DNA from: Halothiobacillaceae bacterium
GTDB lineage: Bacteria > Pseudomonadota > Gammaproteobacteria > Halothiobacillales > Halothiobacillaceae
NCBI GenBank assembly: GCA_028696185.1
Contig: JAQVHL010000027.1
Span: 1-33,303, forward strand
DNA: 33,303 nt
Direction: 5' to 3'
Shown: positions 12,613 to 21,709 of the stretch, one piece after another
How positions within the stretch are numbered: position 1 is the stretch's first letter
Layout: each line of letters opens with the position of its first letter
Notes under the pieces: model-generated
What the model was told of the DNA's origin: nothing
What the model saw: the letters and a program-made list of their open reading frames with translations, nothing else
Databases searched by the model: none
Program-made: the position numbers and the translations under genes

Positions 12613-15600
12613 TTACGGCTTGTCCTGGTTTTTTCCAGAAAGAATTACCAGGGCTTGATCGAAGGCGAAGCGTGCCATCAACGGGTCGAGGCGTGCGATG
12701 TCGGTAGCTTCGAGCCAGGCCGGAGGGTGTTCGCGCAGGGCTTGCCAGAGTTCCAGCGCCTCGCCGTCAAAGTCACGTAGTCGTTCCAGAAAGCGTTCCC
12801 ACTCGGCAGGTGCGGCGGGGCCGTTCGTGCTTTGCCCGGCGGATGGCTGGGCTTGCATCAGACGGGTCTGCACTTCAGTGAGGGTAGCGCGCAGGGTATT
12901 GCCCAAGGCTTCGCTCAGCTCGGACAGCCGGTTTATTTCGACGGGTGGTTGGCGCAGTGCGTCTTCCAGGGCGCCGGCCTGGGCGGCCAATGCATCGGCG
13001 GCCAGGCTACCGGCGACTCCGCGCAGGTTATGGGCCATCAGGCTCAGTGTTTCGTGGTCGCCCATCGCTGATAGTGTGTTCAGCTTTTGTTCTGTGTCGC
13101 TCTCATCCTCAAGAAAGCGTTGCCAGAGTTCGTACTGCAGGGTCGGGTCGTGCCCGCAGAGCATCCGTCCCCGCTCGGGGTTAATCAGCAGAGGTGTGCT
13201 GTCGGCTTCGATGTTTTCCCTGGAAGGGGTGCCCCCGGTTTCACCTGGGGATCGGGCATGGCGGGCGAGGGTTCGGTAGAGCTCGTCCGGGTTGACGGGT
13301 TTGGTGATGTGGTCATTCATGCCCAGGGCCAGGCAGCGGCGTTGCTCCTCCACCATGGCATGTGCCGTCATGGCGATGATCGGCAGTGAGGCATGGCACG
13401 GGTCGGCGCGCAGATGACGCGTCAGCTCGTAACCATCCATCTCCGGCATCTGGATGTCCGTGAGGATCAGATCAAAGCCCGCGCTGCCGTGTTCTGCGAG
13501 TCGGGATAGCGCATCCCGGCCATTGCTGGCGCTGGTAACCTGTACCTGACGTGCACGTAGCAGCACTTCGGCAATCTGGCGATTGATGGCATTGTCTTCC
13601 ACCAGAAGAACACGCAGGCCACTCAAGGCGGGCCGATCTTCGGCGTGCGTCTCATCCTGTGGTACTGGCGTACTCCATTCCGGGTAGAGCAGGGCCAGCA
13701 AATGGTGGGGCATGGCGGGCTTGGTAATCAGGGGCAGCTCTTCGCCCAGGGTGCGCAGTTCGCGGCGGGCGCTGGCTTCGAAAGCGGTGACGATGGCCAG
13801 GCGCGGCAGGGTACGTTCCTGTGTGGGGCGCTGAGACCGCAACTGCTGAAGAAAGGCTGTGCCGGCCATGTCCGGGAGCATCCAGTCCATGAGCAGAAAA
13901 TCGAAGGGTTCGTGCGCCAGCGTACACAGTGCTTCTTGCGCGCTACCGGTTTCGATGACGACCGCGCCCATTTCACGCAGCATACCTGCGAGGGCGTCGC
14001 GCGCTATGGACTGATCCTCGACCAATAGCACGCGTGGTGCGGTGCTGGGCTGGGGGAGCCAGCGATGACCTTCAGCCAGGGGCAGAGTGAGGGCAAAGCT
14101 GAATTCCGAGCCCATTCCTGGCGTGCTACGCACTTCGATGCGCCCCCCCATGGCCATGACCAGTCGCTGGCTGATGGCAAGGCCCAGTCCGGTGCCGCCG
14201 TAGCGGCGTGTGGTGGAGTCGTCCGCCTGACTGAAGTCGCGGAACAGGCGTGCGCGTTGTTCCTCGTTCATGCCGATGCCCGTGTCCTGTACGGTGAAGA
14301 TGACATGCAGGCTCTGACCGTCGATGCGGCGCGTACAGTCGGTTTCAAGCAGGACATGCCCGTGTTCGGTGAACTTCACCGCGTTGGAGAGCAGGTTGGT
14401 GAGGATCTGCCCCAAACGCAAAGGGTCACCTATCAGACGCGATCCGGGGGCGAGGCGGGAGCCGGACTGGCGGTAGACCAGCTCCACGCCCTTGTCGGCA
14501 GCGGCCTGGCTGACCAGGGTGAGGGCATTGTGGCAGACATCCTCCGGCAGGAAGGGGATGTGTTCGATGACGACCTGACCGGCTTCAATCTTCGAGAAAT
14601 CGAGGATGTCGTTGATGATGCCCAGCAGGCCGTGTGCGGCTCGGTGGATATTTTGCACATAATCGCGTTGCTGGGCGTCAAGGTGGGTTTGCAGGGCCAG
14701 ATGGGACATGCCGAGTATGGCGTTCATCGGCGTGCGTATTTCATGGCTCATATTGGCAAGAAAGCGTGCTTTGGCTTGGGTGGAGGCTTCAGCCTCGTTC
14801 TTTGCCTGTACCAGCTGGGCGAGCAGTTCCTGACGTGCCTGAGCATCGCGCAGGCTGGCGATGAGCACGCCGACTGTGGCATGGAAGGGTTCGAGAAAAT
14901 CGGCCAGTTCGTTGCTGTAGGGGGCTTCGCGGTTGGCAATGCCGTACATGCCGACCAAACGCCCGCAATGGAAGATGGGTTCGCCCAGATAGCGCCGTAG
15001 TGGCGGATGTCCCGGTGGCATGTGAGCGCCGCGCGGATCGGTGGCGACATCGTTGCTGATGAGGCGCATTTGCTCGTACATGACGGCGCCGATAAGTGTG
15101 TCGCGCTTGCACAGCGGCATTCCGCCGTCGCGCAAGCGCTGGAAAATGGCGTGCGAGCCCTCATCCCAGGAAATATCGCTGATGGCACGCAGCTGCAGGC
15201 AGCGTTGCCCATCCGGGCCGTCCAGCACTTCTCCGATGAAGCCGTATTCGCTGTCGCTGAGCTCGATGAGCGCGTGCAGAAGTTCTTCCCATACCTCGCT
15301 TTGTCTTGCGCTGTCGGCAACGAAGCGGGTCATGGCCTGACGCAGGGCATCCAGCAGAAGATTTCGCCGTTCGGTTTCCAGACGGGCATCTTCCAGGCGG
15401 CTGAGGTCGGTAATCACGCCGATGAATTCGGGTTTGCCGCCGGTGTCAATGCGGCTGACGCTCAGGTGCATGGCGAAGCTGTGGCCGTTTTTATGCTGAC
15501 CACGTACCTCGCGTCCGGTACCGATGATGTGGTTCTGACCGGTTTCCAGATGGCGCTGGATATATCCGTCGTGCTGGTGGCGCCAGGGCTCAGGCATCAG

Positions 15601-16764
15601 CATCGACACATTGTGGCCCAGCATCTCTTCGCTGCTGTAGCCAAACTGTGCGCTTACCGCCGAGTTGACGGCGATGATCCTTCCCTTGGGGTCGATGCGT
15701 ATCTTGCCGCTGGGCGAGTTGTTCCAAATGGCTTCATAGCGGTCCAGCGGTTCCAGTGCATCGCGGCGCAGACGCAGGATGAAACTCAATGCCAGGCCGA
15801 GCAGGCCGAGGCCAGCCGCGATGGCGCCCAGGGTGGCGTACAGATGGCGGTGATGCAGGTGTGTGCTGATGCGGCGCACCTGATCCAGTGTCCGAGCCAG
15901 CAGCGTGTCGAAGCGGGCCTGCATGGGCAGGGCGATGCGGTGGCGGAAGTTCGCCCGTGCTTCGGCGTTTTCGGCCGGATTGCCGTTCAGATAAGGCAGC
16001 AGATGGCGGTCGCGGAACAGTGCATAGGCATTGAGCGTGTCGAACAGCTGAGCTTGCAGGTTCTCCGGTAGACGGGTTTCGGTCTGCATGTCGATGTGGC
16101 TTTGCAGGCGGGCCATGTGCTCATCCGCACGGCCCATGCGTCGCACCAGGGCGTCACGATCCAGTGCGTCACCGTATTCGGCGTGACGGCGCATTTCCAG
16201 CAGCAGTGGATGGATTTCCCGGCGCGCGTTCCAGCTGTCGGAAATAAGGATCAGATAAGGGGCGATCTCGGCATCCTTGCCCAGCGGATGACCGAAAAAC
16301 CGTTCGCGCATCTGGTGGAACAGCGCGTCGATCAGGCGGTGTGCCGGCTGCCACCAGCCCTCCGGTGGAGGCGGTTTACAGGCCGGAGCAGCCTGCTGGC
16401 AGCGGTCGACTTCCGCACGCTGGGCATGGAAGGTATCGATCAGGGCTTGTGCGTTTTCCCGCCGGGTACGGGGCAGCTGGCGCGTCCATCGGTCGAGCAG
16501 CGAGTCCAGCTCGCGACGCGTTTGTGCGATTTCCTGTTGATCCTGCGGGTTGGGATGGGCCGCCAGGGTATAGCCGCGCGCCGTTTCACGCGCGGTGAGG
16601 CGGTTGATTTCGAGATACAGGTCGATGGATTCGAGCTCGTCCAGCCATTCGCGCTCCTTGAACAGCAGGTTCTGGTCGCGCAAGAGCAGCAGGGCGAGAA
16701 ACCCCAGAAAGAACAAGCCCAGAAAGAGTGGCCGGGCGATCAGTCGGTGGGAGGCGTGGGGCAT
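12613..16764 (-). CDS. Hybrid sensor histidine kinase with PAS, GAF, two receivers and Hpt
   Basis: This inner-membrane protein has 1383 residues. A first membrane helix at about residues 10-27 is followed by a periplasmic helical sensor region of about 280 residues, then a second helix at about 311-332. A PAS domain comes next (about 340-465, with [20 protein letters not shown]), then a GAF domain (about 475-645). The HisKA site is His674 in [10 protein letters not shown]; an HATPase domain with DTGIGM and GGTGLGL follows. Receiver 1 has Asp960 ([10 protein letters not shown]), receiver 2 has Asp1103 ([13 protein letters not shown]) and the Hpt domain has His1245 ([11 protein letters not shown]). 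The receiver-receiver-Hpt tail resembles BarA-type phosphorelay kinases. It lies 17 bases after the HD-GYP regulator gene, its likely partner. The signal is unknown. Confidence 0.92.
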
Positions 16765-16781
16765 GGCGTGACTCGGACCGG

Positions 16782-17879
16782 TCAGTCGTGCAGGCGTTTG
16801 TGTACGTTGGCAATGTCCTTTTCGCGATCAAGGAAGAGGGCGCACAGGCGTGGATCGAAGTGCCGCCCCTGGCCTTCGCGGATGAGGGATAGGGCCTGTT
16901 CGTGACTGAAGGGTTTCTTGTAGGGGCGCGCGGAACGCAGGGCATCGTAGACATCGGCCAGCGCCATCAGTCGTGCGGGCAGGGGAATAGCTTCGCCTGA
17001 GAGGCCGTCCGGGTAACCGCTGCCATCCCATTTTTCGTGGTGTGAGCGGGTGATCTGGCAGGCAATTTCCAGATAGCGCCCGCTGTCCGCAAGGTTCTGC
17101 ACCGCGCGGGTCAGAATGTTGTAGCCCTTCACGGTGTGGGTCTTCATGATTGCAAACTCCTCGTCGGTGAGCTTGCCGGGCTTGAGCAGGATGTGGTCGG
17201 GAATGGCGATCTTGCCGATGTCGTGCAGCGGCGCAGACTTGACAATCAGGTGCAGGGTTTCGTCATCCAGCGCACTGGCGAAGGCGTTTTTCTGGCGTGC
17301 GTCGTTTGCCAGCAATTCGACAAAGAGCTGGGTACGGCGGATATGGTTGCCGGTGTCTTCGTCGCGAAACTCGGCGAGAGAGGTCATGACCAGGATGCTG
17401 GTGTCCTGCATGCGGTTGATTTCATTGAGCCGACGCTCTACCTCCGCTTCCAGCCACTGATTGCGGTTGAGCAGAAAATCGCGCCATTGCTTGCTGGCCA
17501 GATGAGAGCGAACCCGTGCGAGCAATACCGGAGGCACGATGGGTTTGGTGACGAAATCCGCTGCGCCGGCCAGAAAGCCGCGCTCTTCGTCCTCCGGTGA
17601 TGACATGGCCGTGAGGAAAATAACGGGCACTGCATTGAAACGTGGGTCGGCTTTCAGGCGGCGCAATACCTCGTACCCGTCCATGCCGGGCATCATGATG
17701 TCCAGCAGGATCAAGTCCGGCGTTTCGCGCTCCACGGCTTCCAGTGCTGCCGCGCCGGAATTGGCCAGACGCACGCGGTAGCTGTCCTTGAGCAAGGGGT
17801 GCAGAAGTTGGAGGTTGGCCGGTGTGTCGTCGACACAGAGAATCGACTCGCGACGTTCGCCTGGAAGAAATGCCTGCAT
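16782..17879 (-). CDS. Response regulator with HD-GYP phosphodiesterase domain
   Basis: The protein has 365 residues. A receiver domain occupies about residues 14-130, with acidic pair VDD, phospho-acceptor Asp60 ([17 protein letters not shown]) and the conserved Thr/Lys further on (FLTAMS, VTKPI). A short helix-rich linker leads to an HD-GYP domain: [14 protein letters not shown] with His219-Asp220, then [14 protein letters not shown] and [26 protein letters not shown] enzymes hydrolyse cyclic di-GMP to pGpG or GMP in the cytoplasm, and all the metal-binding residues I can check are present. It is the first gene of an operon with the hybrid kinase and is divergent from the luxE-like gene. 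Lower c-di-GMP usually favours motility. No Shine-Dalgarno is obvious before the ATG. Confidence 0.92.
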
Positions 17880-18005: not shown

Positions 18006-19196
18006 ATGATCGACGAGCCGCAGGACATGAGCCTCGATACCACGATTCCCGACGCCGTGCGTCGTTTTTGTGCACTGGAAGCTGCCTACGCTGATCCGCT
18101 CACACATGAGGCCCTGTTCGTGGAGGCGATGCGTGAGATTGTCGCCTGGCATATTGAGCGTTCGCCCTGGTACGGGCGTTTCGCGTGCGAGAACGGCATC
18201 CGTCCCGATACCCTGCGCTGCCTCGATGCGGTGTTGCACATGCCGCCGGTGCATGCTGCCTTCTTCAAGGCGCATGAAATCCGCTCCATCCGTCGTGAGC
18301 AGGCGGTGGCGCATCTGACCTCCTCGGGCACGACCGGGCAGAAGACCCAGATGTTCTTCGATGAGTTCACCTTGGGTGGCGCGCGCCGCATGGTGGATCG
18401 TGTCATGCAGGCGCGTGGAGTGTGGAGCGACGCTCCCGCCCATTATCTGGTCAATGGCTACGAGCCTTTCGAGGGCCTGACGGTTGGCACATCGAACACC
18501 AACCAGTACCTCATGCGCTATGCGCCGGTGGCCGAGACCTTCTGGACCCTGCGCCATGTGGGCGGCGGGCGTCACGAATTCGATCCCTTCGGCGCCACGT
18601 CCGCACTCGAACGCTGGGCGCAGGGCGCCACCCCGGTGCGTCTCATCGGCTTCCCCGCCTATCTGCATTTCCTGCTCGAACGCTGGCGCGATACAGGCCA
18701 TCCGCCCGTGAAACTGCCGCCGGGCAGCCTCGTGGTGTTCGGTGGCGGCTGGAAGGGGCAGGCGGACAAGGCCATCCCGCGCGAGGTGCTGCAGGCGTAT
18801 ATCGAACGTCAGCTGGGTATTCCCGGCGAGCGGGTGGTGGAAACCTACGGATCGGTCGAGCACAGCATCCCGTATGTGGATTGCCGCGCCCATCATCTGC
18901 ATCAGCCCACCTGGTCACGGGTGGTGGTGCGCGATCTGAAAACCCTGCGTCCGGTGCCGGACGGCACGCCAGGGTTTCTGTCCTTTGTCTCGCCCTACAT
19001 CACCTCGGCTCCGGCGCACAGCATCGTGATGGGCGATCTGGCCGTGCGCCATCCGGCGGGTGAGTGTGTCTGTGGCGATCATCCTACACCCTGGTTCGAG
19101 GTGCTCGGGCGGGCCGGTATGTCGGCCAACCGCAGCTGCGCGGCGGCCGCCGCCGAATTGCTCAAGGGCCATAACGGCGGGGAGGAAGGCCTGTGA
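18006..19196 (+). CDS. LuxE-like acyl-protein synthetase / acyl ligase
   Basis: The protein has 396 residues, close to the LuxE length of about 380. The AMP-binding P-loop SSGTTG lies at residues 106-111, inside AHLTSSGTTGQKTQMFFDE. GSLVVFGGGWKG and VETYGSVEHSIPYVDC follow in the order seen in LuxE/PaaK-type enzymes. Near the C-terminus are Cys354 and Cys356 (ECVCGDH) and Cys378; LuxE has its acyl-accepting Cys close to the C-terminus, so Cys378 is a candidate. LuxE activates a fatty acid as acyl-AMP and passes the acyl group, via its Cys, to the LuxC reductase. The next gene encodes a LuxC protein and is translationally coupled, which strongly supports the reading. AGGA lies seven bases before the ATG; ATG 18027 is an alternative start. 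No luciferase is seen. Confidence 0.85.
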   Translation: MIDEPQDMSLDTTIPDAVRRFCALEAAYADPLTHEALFVEAMREIVAWHIERSPWYGRFACENGIRPDTLRCLDAVLHMPPVHAAFFKAHEIRSIRREQAVAHLTSSGTTGQKTQMFFDEFTLGGARRMVDRVMQARGVWSDAPAHYLVNGYEPFEGLTVGTSNTNQYLMRYAPVAETFWTLRHVGGGRHEFDPFGATSALERWAQGATPVRLIGFPAYLHFLLERWRDTGHPPVKLPPGSLVVFGGGWKGQADKAIPREVLQAYIERQLGIPGERVVETYGSVEHSIPYVDCRAHHLHQPTWSRVVVRDLKTLRPVPDGTPGFLSFVSPYITSAPAHSIVMGDLAVRHPAGECVCGDHPTPWFEVLGRAGMSANRSCAAAAAELLKGHNGGEEGL

Positions 19197-21709
19197 TGCG
19201 GCATTTCTGGTTCGGTGAGTGGATTGACGATACGACCTTGGATGCAGCGCTTTCAACCCTGGAGACCCGGCTGGCTGCGACCCTGCCGCAGCGTTTTCCG
19301 CTGGATGATTTGCTCGATGCGGCCCAGGCGCTGTCCGATGCGCTTGATCCGGGAGGGTCGCTTTACGCGCGTTTTCTGGCACTGGTCCGGCAGACTCAGC
19401 CGCTCGACGAGGCCCGGCGATTGCTTGCGGCCGCGCGGGGGGCACTGACGCGCGAGGCCCTGCTGGGCAAGCTGCGCGGCGAGCTGGGGCAGGCCAGCCC
19501 CGGCGCCATTGAGCGCCGGTATCCCGCTCGCCCGTTCGAGGGCTGGCTACCCATGGGTGCCGTGGTGCACGTCATGCCGGCCAATGTGTTCCTGGTTTCC
19601 GCGCTGGGTCTGGTGGAGGGGCTGCTGGTCGGCAATGTCAATCTGGTCAAGTTGAGCGCACGGGATTCCCTGTTTGCGGCGGAATTCGCCGCCGCACTGT
19701 GCGAGCGTGACCCTGGCGGGCGCTTGCGCGATTACATGGCCGTGCTGCATCTGGCCTCTGCCGAGCACACCCGGCTGGCAACGCTGTTCGCCCAGGCCGA
19801 TGCGGTTTCCGCCTGGGGCGGGGAGAGCGCCATGGCTGCTGTGCGTGCGGCAGTTCCACAGGGCGTGCGTCTGGTGAGCTGGGGGCACAAGCTGTCCTTC
19901 GCCTATGTGAGCCGCGAAGCGCTCGACTGCGCCGAGACGTTCGCGAAAGCAGTCGAGGGGGTAGCCATCGATATGTGCCGACTCGATCAACAGGCCTGCT
20001 CCAGCCCGCAAACCGTCTTTATCGAAAGCGATGAGGCGGGAGTGGAACGCTTTGCCGACGCCCTGGCGCACGCCCTGGAGCGCATCGCGCCGCAATGGCC
20101 GGGGCAGGCGCCCGAAGGCGCGGCCCTCGCCGAGATCACCACCGTGCTGTCGGTGGCGCGTGCCGAACAGGCCCTGGGGCTGACCCGCGTCATCGAGGAC
20201 GCCGAAGGCGGCTGGCGTCTGCTGGTCGATCATCGCCCCGGATTGCGCCCTTCGCCGCTTTACCGCACGCTCTGGATCAAGGCGATGCGTCGCGAAGAGA
20301 TGGTCTCCACCCTGCGCCCGATGCGTACCTGGTTGCAGACCTGCGGCCTGGCCAGCACCCGCGAAGCACTTGGCCCGCTGAGCCGGGCCTTGTTTGCTGC
20401 CGGTGTGACGCGCATTGCCCGGCCGGGGGAAATGGTGGACAGCTACACGGGGGCGCCGCACGACGGGGTGTATGCGCTCATGCAGCTGACGCGGCGTGTC
20501 TCGCTGGATGCTCCGGAAGCCAGCATGGGGGTGGGCCGCCTGGATGAGCTGGAGGCGCCGCTCGCGCATCCGGCGCTACGCGGTCCGATCCTCGACAAGG
20601 CGGGGTTTCAGGCCCATACCGACGCACTCGCCACGGCCGATCTGGTGTTTCGCAGTGGTGGTTCCAGCGGCAAGACCGTGTACTCCACGTTCTCCTGGGC
20701 CGATTACCATGCACAGATGCGGGCGGCCGCCCATGGCCTTGTGGCCGCGGGACTGGAGCCTGAGCGCGACCGGGTGATGAATCTGTTCGCTGCCGGGCAC
20801 CTGTACGGCAGCTTCATCAGCTTCTGGAGCATTCTGGAAACCCTGCGCGCCCGCCAGTTGCCGATGGGGTTGCTGGCGGACTTCGCGGAAATTGCCGATG
20901 CCATCGTCAGCCTGCAGGCCAATGCGCTGGTCGGCGCGCCTTCGCATCTACTTGGACTGTTCGAGCAGGAGGGTGAGCGCCTGCGTGGGGTGGTGGAAAA
21001 AATCTTCTATGCCGGCGAGCCTTTGACCCGCGCCCAGCGCGCACGCCTGACGGAAACCTTTGGCGTGCGCGTACTACGCTCGGCGGCCTACGGCTCCAAT
21101 GATGCCGGCCCGATGGGCTACCAGTGCCCGTATTGCGAGGGCAGTGTGCATCATCTGCTGGGCTCGGTGCAGCAGCTGGAAATTGTGGCGCTGGATGAGG
21201 ATCGTCCGGTTGCACCGGGTGAGGTCGGTCGCCTGCTGTTTACTACCTCGCCACGCCTGCGCGGTGCGCCCGCCCTGCGTCGTTACGAGATTGGCGATAC
21301 CGGCCGCTGGTTGGACACGCCCTGTCCCTGCGGGCGGCGCGATCCGCGCTTCGAGCTGACCGGCCGCATCGGCGATGCTTTCAAGGCCGGAGGCCCGTTT
21401 TTCAACGCGCGCCGCTTTTTCGACATCCTCGATCAGCAGTTAGGCTATGCCGGCCCGGCGCAGATTCATCTGCGCGATGATGAGGCACGCAGTGTGGTGG
21501 AGCTGCGCATCGCGGAAGGCGCCGGGCTCAGCGCCGCGCAGGCGGCGGAAGCCGTGCGTCTGCACTACCCGGAAGTCCGCTATTGTGAGACCCAGGGCAT
21601 GGCCTTTCGTTTTGAGGTCCGTTTGGTTGATGCGTCCGGATTCCAGCGTGTCGCGGCCAGTGGAAAGCTGCCGCCGGTCATCGATAGCCGCGCGATAGGC
21701 GAGGGCTGA
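19196..21709 (+). CDS. LuxC acyl reductase fused to a PaaK/CapK-like adenylating domain
   Basis: The protein has 837 residues from ATG 19196; GTG 19193 is also possible. The site GGAGGA is within ten bases, and the ATG overlaps the upstream TGA. Residues about 1-430 are LuxC: GAVVHVMPANVFLVSALG, GNVNLVKLSARDSLFAAEF, and the catalytic Cys268 in LDQQACSSPQ. LuxC is an aldehyde-dehydrogenase-fold enzyme that reduces a bound acyl group to the aldehyde with NADPH. Residues about 450-837 are a phenylacetate-CoA-ligase-like (ANL) domain: FRSGGSSGKT at about 486-494, NLFAAGHLYGSF, YGSNDAGPMGYQ, CPYC and CPCGRRDPRFELTGR, GDAFKAGG. This extra adenylating domain is absent from LuxC of luminous bacteria. 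The operon would therefore hold two acid-activating domains and one reductase. Substrate unknown. Confidence 0.87.
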   Translation: MRHFWFGEWIDDTTLDAALSTLETRLAATLPQRFPLDDLLDAAQALSDALDPGGSLYARFLALVRQTQPLDEARRLLAAARGALTREALLGKLRGELGQASPGAIERRYPARPFEGWLPMGAVVHVMPANVFLVSALGLVEGLLVGNVNLVKLSARDSLFAAEFAAALCERDPGGRLRDYMAVLHLASAEHTRLATLFAQADAVSAWGGESAMAAVRAAVPQGVRLVSWGHKLSFAYVSREALDCAETFAKAVEGVAIDMCRLDQQACSSPQTVFIESDEAGVERFADALAHALERIAPQWPGQAPEGAALAEITTVLSVARAEQALGLTRVIEDAEGGWRLLVDHRPGLRPSPLYRTLWIKAMRREEMVSTLRPMRTWLQTCGLASTREALGPLSRALFAAGVTRIARPGEMVDSYTGAPHDGVYALMQLTRRVSLDAPEASMGVGRLDELEAPLAHPALRGPILDKAGFQAHTDALATADLVFRSGGSSGKTVYSTFSWADYHAQMRAAAHGLVAAGLEPERDRVMNLFAAGHLYGSFISFWSILETLRARQLPMGLLADFAEIADAIVSLQANALVGAPSHLLGLFEQEGERLRGVVEKIFYAGEPLTRAQRARLTETFGVRVLRSAAYGSNDAGPMGYQCPYCEGSVHHLLGSVQQLEIVALDEDRPVAPGEVGRLLFTTSPRLRGAPALRRYEIGDTGRWLDTPCPCGRRDPRFELTGRIGDAFKAGGPFFNARRFFDILDQQLGYAGPAQIHLRDDEARSVVELRIAEGAGLSAAQAAEAVRLHYPEVRYCETQGMAFRFEVRLVDASGFQRVAASGKLPPVIDSRAIGEG

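Follow-up and report, generated by a model that had tools for sequence, protein, structure and literature searches.

A LuxE/LuxC-PaaK gene pair without luciferase as the likely half of a leupeptin-type peptide aldehyde pathway in a Halothiobacillaceae bacterium

What does a gene pair related to the LuxC-LuxE fatty acid reductase of luminous bacteria do in a genome that has no luciferase gene pair? The question is raised by a 33,303-nucleotide stretch of DNA from a Halothiobacillaceae bacterium (contig JAQVHL010000027.1 of assembly GCA_028696185.1; hereafter the window), which is contig 58 (C58) of a 2.92-Mb draft genome and carries a LuxE gene overlapping a gene for a LuxC reductase fused to a PaaK-like domain. 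We consider it quite likely that this pair is the LuxE and LuxC-PaaK half of a leupeptin-type pathway to an N-acylated short peptide aldehyde, independent of nonribosomal peptide synthetases (NRPS), and that the second half lies on contig 112 (C112) of the same genome. The peptide aldehyde is probably a protease inhibitor.

The upstream open reading frame (ORF; 18006..19196, + strand) encodes a LuxE-family acyl-protein synthetase of 396 aa, which matches Pfam PF04443 over almost its entire length (101 bits, E 7e-29) and the LuxE chain of 7xc6 (7xc6_E) in phmmer (E 6e-13). Its P-loop SSGTTG (residues 106-111; 18321..18338) is kept in nine homologues except at position 110, and the putative acyl-thioester site Cys378 (19137..19139) is invariant in all nine. 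The LuxE stop codon TGA (19194-19196) lies within the overlap GTGATG, where the downstream gene starts with GTG at 19193 or ATG at 19196, giving a LuxC-PaaK fusion of 838 or 837 aa, respectively (19193..21709, + strand). Its LuxC acyl reductase domain (residues 37-435; 19301..20497) scores 303 bits against PF05893, is found at the same position in the genome search, and matches the LuxC chain of 7xc6 (phmmer E 9e-16). The catalytic Cys in the motif DQQACSSPQ (19997..19999) is Cys269 counted from GTG and is invariant in 9/9 homologues. An earlier interpretation of this DNA from its letters (the sequence-only reading) had described a LuxE-like ligase with SSGTTG and Cys378, coupled by overlap to a LuxC reductase; both ORFs and the overlap at 19193-19196 are borne out, and its catalytic Cys268 is correct if counted from ATG.

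The remainder of the fusion protein (approximately residues 470-838; 20600..21706) is a PaaK-like ANL domain and putative amide ligase from which the usual N-terminal part of PaaK is absent. It contains a PF00501 AMP-binding match over residues 525-684 (34.6 bits against a curated cut-off of 29.9), matches the BagE/FevW and PaaK profiles as well as the PaaK-like ligases 6hdw, 6wuq, 4r1l, and 6siw in the PDB, and aligns with profile NF045666 from profile position 96, leaving approximately 85 N-terminal PaaK residues unrepresented. The P-loop, the A5, A7, and A8 motifs, and the C-terminal lysine are all present (SGGSSG, YGSNDAGP, YEIGD, GRIGD, and GK825). Ser488, Gly489, Gly490, and Gly493 of the P-loop (residues 488-493; 20654..20671) and the C-terminal, A10-type lysine K825 (21665..21667) are invariant in the nine homologues. 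The A5 motif holds an Asp (D637); PaaK enzymes have a Glu at this position. An AlphaFold model of the fusion built from three sequences had a mean pLDDT (predicted local distance difference test) of 53 and a pTM (predicted template modeling score) of 0.33, and was not used. The profile and PDB matches uphold the view of the sequence-only reading that LuxC carries an extra PaaK-like adenylating domain, and that the pair is an aldehyde-forming carboxylate reductase with two activation modules.

Examination of homologous loci shows that the pair belongs to a cassette of four genes encoding LuxE, LuxC-PaaK, a stand-alone PaaK-like ligase (PaaK2), and a GNAT acyltransferase, which is compact in these loci. 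Full-length homologues of the fusion, with 35-52% identity to the window protein, are rare: among 369 genomes of the class only the window genome itself has one, none occurs in the 26 other genomes of the family, and two occur among 395 genomes of the order of genome G372, both in Enterobacteriaceae genus g347. Six of 72,556 plasmid records carry the full-length fusion, and the same six records are the six top-listed LuxE matches and hold the six best PaaK2 matches, the next match scoring at most 99 bits. In every homologous locus LuxE lies directly upstream of the fusion, with a stand-alone PaaK-like ligase and a GNAT nearby. The order LuxE, LuxC-PaaK, PaaK, GNAT is found in Salmonella plasmid CP054717 and in g347, whose 3.9-4.2 Mb genomes contain all four genes; in Hydrogenovibrio halophilus (locus L014) and a Lysobacterales metagenome-assembled genome (MAG; locus L013) the order is the same, with the GNAT fused to a HATPase domain. 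Streptomyces NBC_00158 has the order PaaK, major facilitator superfamily (MFS) gene, GNAT, LuxE, LuxC-PaaK, and two further Streptomyces plasmids share it in a hidden Markov model (HMM) comparison of the four cassette genes. The three compact cassettes measured are 5759 bp (Salmonella), 5763 bp, and 5778 bp (both g347) long. Across nine loci, the identity matrices of the four proteins agree with one another (r 0.90-0.98).

The Salmonella plasmids with the cassette are conjugative, and a search of E. coli genomes with the Salmonella cassette DNA gave no match. Decaying copies also occur in Salmonella: the GNAT gene is frameshifted in CP053580.1 (locus L048), and plasmids CP053407.1 and NC_019126.1 retain a LuxE remnant of approximately 495 bp at 90% identity.

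In the window genome, the other two cassette genes are present at C112:19137-21610, flanked by fliS and legionaminic-acid genes and by metG. They encode a stand-alone PaaK ligase (C112:19137-20090; 317 aa, containing a run of 100 N at C112:19824-19923) and a HATPase-GNAT fusion (C112:20084-21610). For both halves the nearest relative is Hydrogenovibrio, with identities of 59% for LuxE, 52% for the fusion, 50% for the ligase, and 42% for the GNAT. Most simply, a single cassette, whether inherited or acquired, would later have been split. Just upstream of the second half (L016:2004-9389 on C112) lie LegB, NeuC, NeuB, NeuD, and PseF-like genes next to fliS, and these legionaminic/sialic-acid type genes are a probable flagellin glycosylation locus.

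The published pathway that most resembles this cassette is that of leupeptin. According to PMC11212599, citing Li et al. 2020, its biosynthesis involves no NRPS and relies on separate AMP-dependent ligases together with a reductase; Li et al. 2020 is also cited for the leup pathway in PMC11480411 and PMC8283571. Other authors place leup operons in Photorhabdus, Xenorhabdus, and K. oxytoca / Klebsiella. The K. oxytoca leupABCD (CAV1374, CP011636.1; AB185_06775, _06780, _06785, and _06790) comprises four genes (315403-321183), or 5781 bp counted from the start of the leupA primer. Likeness to leupABCD was judged by gene count, length, hosts, primer peptides, and published description. The primer-encoded peptide MKIAIHN aligns with MSVDMQN of g347 LuxE, and primer-encoded EQLKDH falls near EQLERQ/EQLAEQ of g347 LuxC-PaaK; the published leupA primer pattern gave no match in the Salmonella locus. 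The non-NRPS ligases and the reductase are all found in the window genome (LuxE, LuxC-PaaK, and PaaK2 by Pfam and HMM), where, rather than forming a single cluster of approximately 5.8 kb, the four genes are split between C58 and C112. Agreement in gene count, kinds of enzyme, length, and hosts, with compatible primer-encoded peptides, strongly suggests, short of proof, that the cassette corresponds to leupABCD.

A peptide substrate is also suggested by the nearest unfused LuxE/LuxC pair in plasmids, that of S. europaeiscabiei (locus L063, NZ_CP109155.1; LuxE 48.5% and LuxC 42.7% identical). Its neighbors encode a nitroreductase-YcaO protein, a DUF692 (MbnB/TglH/ChrH) protein, a metallo-beta-lactamase-fold protein, and an MFS transporter. 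Eighty bases 3′ of LuxC is a ‘hypothetical’ ORF of 53 aa (L063:14558-14719, + strand) with a Shine-Dalgarno-like sequence, MCSFSHADEFPFRAAAHAGSDDFPFRAAAGASNDFPFRGAMQSNNDEFPFRNR. The ORF contains four [D/E]FPFR units whose arginines are encoded by four different codons; among 20,000 shuffles of its residues, a 4-mer occurred at least three times in 11. It looks like a multi-core precursor, with Arg-ended cores, of a ribosomally synthesized and post-translationally modified peptide (RiPP), and it is likely to be a precursor for Arg-ended peptide aldehydes. Because these cores end in Arg and leupeptin is an argininal, the comparison suggests that the LuxE/LuxC clade of the cassette acts as a reductase on the C-termini of peptides, with arginine perhaps as the final residue. 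Whether the clade as a whole is a general, perhaps Arg-preferring, peptide C-terminus reductase is in our judgment evenly balanced; it would then serve two unrelated kinds of peptide pathway: NRPS-independent ligase cassettes of the leupeptin type, including the RsbW-linked ones of gammaproteobacteria outside the published pathogens, and a RiPP pathway giving FPF-argininal protease inhibitors from [D/E]FPFR repeats. Chloroflexota plasmid CP069395.1 (L064:9935-12336) also carries a LuxE/LuxC pair from this wider clade, and its annotated neighbors include no ligase, GNAT, or luciferase.

Modeled on Ac-Leu-Leu-argininal, the pathway would begin with acylation of the first amino acid by the GNAT. 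The stand-alone PaaK-like ligase would then adenylate the acylated amino acid and couple the second amino acid to it, and the PaaK domain fused to LuxC would couple the last. Once the peptide is complete, LuxE would adenylate its free C-terminal carboxylate and load it on Cys378, from which the acyl group would move to Cys269 of LuxC for reduction with NADPH to the aldehyde. In this scheme one reductase has two activation modules because the modules would act at different steps. The most likely division of labor is that the LuxE/LuxC pair activates and reduces the peptide C-terminus, while the fused PaaK domain forms a peptide bond. We infer this assignment of enzymes to steps, as well as the substrate in the window organism.

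Several observations weigh against the leupeptin-type reading. The two halves in the window genome are on different contigs with unrelated surroundings, and the stand-alone ligase is interrupted by the run of N (317 aa against approximately 420-440) and may not be intact. The GNAT is the least conserved part of the cassette (15-42% identity between lineages) and its HATPase domain in the window genome is degenerate; a different acyl group, or even a different amine, may therefore be involved. The comparison with leupABCD did not include the named leupA-D sequences, and the positional match of EQLKDH presumes a slightly longer N-terminus in Klebsiella. The leupA primer pattern had no match in a set of 285 Enterobacteriaceae genomes that includes none known to belong to the right species. 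We infer that g347 is Xenorhabdus or Photorhabdus.

Other functions for the pair have to be weighed against this evidence. Membership in a bioluminescence luxCDABE system finds no support: the genome has no luxAB pair (the sequence-only reading had no luxA, luxB, or luxD in view), and its one luciferase-like monooxygenase is a protein of 345 aa that is nearest to the MsnO8 family and adjoins an ATP-binding cassette (ABC) transporter gene. A LuxD search of the genome gave no match, a weak negative, as no control genome matched either. None of the three results named as refuting the sequence-only reading turned up (luxAB elsewhere, loss of the catalytic Cys, a C-terminal domain outside the ANL enzymes), and the reading is supported in part. 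Its proposal of an orphan pathway to a lipid, wax, or pigment, in which each of two modules brings its own acid to a single reductase, appears highly improbable. Two activating domains and one reductase are indeed present, but the pair is no orphan, since a second ligase and a GNAT always accompany it and occur in the same genome, and the homologous loci have no lipid or pigment genes in common. Joint feeding of two acids is less likely than action of the modules in series, in which one would form a peptide bond and the other would activate the finished carboxylate for reduction.

A role in the decoration of flagellin or cell-surface glycans, with the pair reducing a fatty acyl group as proposed for flagellin glycosylation islands, is quite unlikely. 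LuxE and LuxC are present in such islands of Aeromonas and Enterobacteriaceae and in the sugar or flagellin islands of loci L050-L052, and the partner genes on C112 adjoin the legionaminic-acid locus and the FliS gene. However, the close kinship and neighboring acyl carrier protein (ACP) or FabG genes of an island system are both lacking here: the island pairs lack the fusion and are very remotely related (115-144 bits against more than 620), forming a separate branch with 100% support, and the cassette is without ACP or FabG. Salmonella and Streptomyces copies have no adjoining glycan genes. Because the cassette is present in the Lysobacterales genome, which has no flagellin match, a function in flagella was discarded. 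An acylated non-peptide aldehyde, such as an acylated amino-aldehyde or an aromatic aldehyde signal, is an unlikely product. GriC/GriD is a two-part carboxylic acid reductase, pairs of ANL enzyme and reductase are able to reduce aromatic acids, and the GNAT differs between lineages, all of which would fit such a product. Yet activation of a single acid does not call for as many modules as two PaaK-type ligases plus LuxE, gene count, length, and hosts agree with leupABCD, and the nearest unfused pair is in a RiPP, that is, peptide, locus.

An N-terminal HATPase_c_2 (RsbW-like) domain is fused to the GNAT in the window genome (L016:11084-12610), Hydrogenovibrio (L014:11849-13567), and the Lysobacterales MAG (L013:12179-13672), and is missing from the Salmonella and Streptomyces copies. 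The N-box Asn and the G1 Asp of the HATPase are kept in the MAG and lost in the other two, where the domain therefore looks degenerate. Genes for an RsbU (SpoIIE) phosphatase, an RsbW-like protein, and a STAS protein lie 3′ of the cassette in Hydrogenovibrio (L014:13568-16346) and the MAG (L013:13669-16754), and their presence behind the cassette in two unrelated hosts hints at partner-switch control. The window genome has an RsbV-W-U set on contig C74, unlinked to the cassette. RsbU/W/V as an obligate part of the cassette was rejected because the Salmonella and Streptomyces cassettes lack Rsb genes. HATPase-GNAT relatives also occur outside the cassette (L031:3250-4920, - strand; L030:517-2127, + strand), one of them immediately following the gene for a large type I polyketide synthase.

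Upstream of the pair in the window, a hybrid sensor kinase and a response regulator with an HD-GYP type domain (12613-17879, - strand) are divergent from LuxE, with 126 bp between them, and are possible regulators. A promoter scan ahead of LuxE gave nothing convincing, and an Rfam scan of the window gave no match.

If the leupeptin-type reading is true, genes that carry bioluminescence or phenylacetate metabolism annotations are markers of a small, mobile route to protease inhibitors of the peptide aldehyde type, one that spans Gammaproteobacteria and Streptomyces and is carried on conjugative Salmonella plasmids. The two activation modules would have a testable division of labor, and LuxE/LuxC would offer a tool for converting peptide C-termini to aldehydes, with a connection to RiPPs. 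The window genome would also illustrate that a biosynthetic cassette can be split within a genome with both halves persisting.

Comparison with known systems places the cassette as follows. The LuxC-LuxE fatty acid reductase of luminous bacteria (7xc6) has both enzyme families and the same proposed Cys-to-Cys relay from LuxE to LuxC, but is matched only at the E-values given above, and the window genome differs in having an ANL domain on LuxC and neither luciferase nor a LuxD match. In the flagellin islands (Aeromonas Group II, Enterobacteriaceae), LuxE likewise adjoins LuxC without luciferase, whereas the pairs there are unfused, accompanied by ACP, FabG, and AMP synthetase genes, and on a distant branch. 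PaaK-like ligases (4r1l, 6hdw, 6siw) and BagE/FevW share the ANL fold by profile, the P-loop, the C-terminal lysine, and Cys motifs with the fused domain, which, unlike them, has no N-terminal part and sits C-terminal to LuxC. RsbU/RsbW/RsbV partner-switching modules share the HATPase domain of the GNAT fusion, and RsbU, RsbW, and STAS genes adjoin the cassette in L013 and L014; the loss of the N-box Asn and G1 Asp in the window genome and Hydrogenovibrio sets the domain apart. With leupABCD the cassette has in common four genes, a length of approximately 5.78 kb, separate AMP-dependent ligases with a reductase and no NRPS, and occurrence in Enterobacteriaceae (g347) with Xenorhabdus-like genomes of 3.9-4.2 Mb. 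On the leupeptin-type reading, the pathway is known in kind; what is new is the hosts outside the published pathogens, the split over two contigs in the window genome, and the fusion of the GNAT to an RsbW-like HATPase domain.

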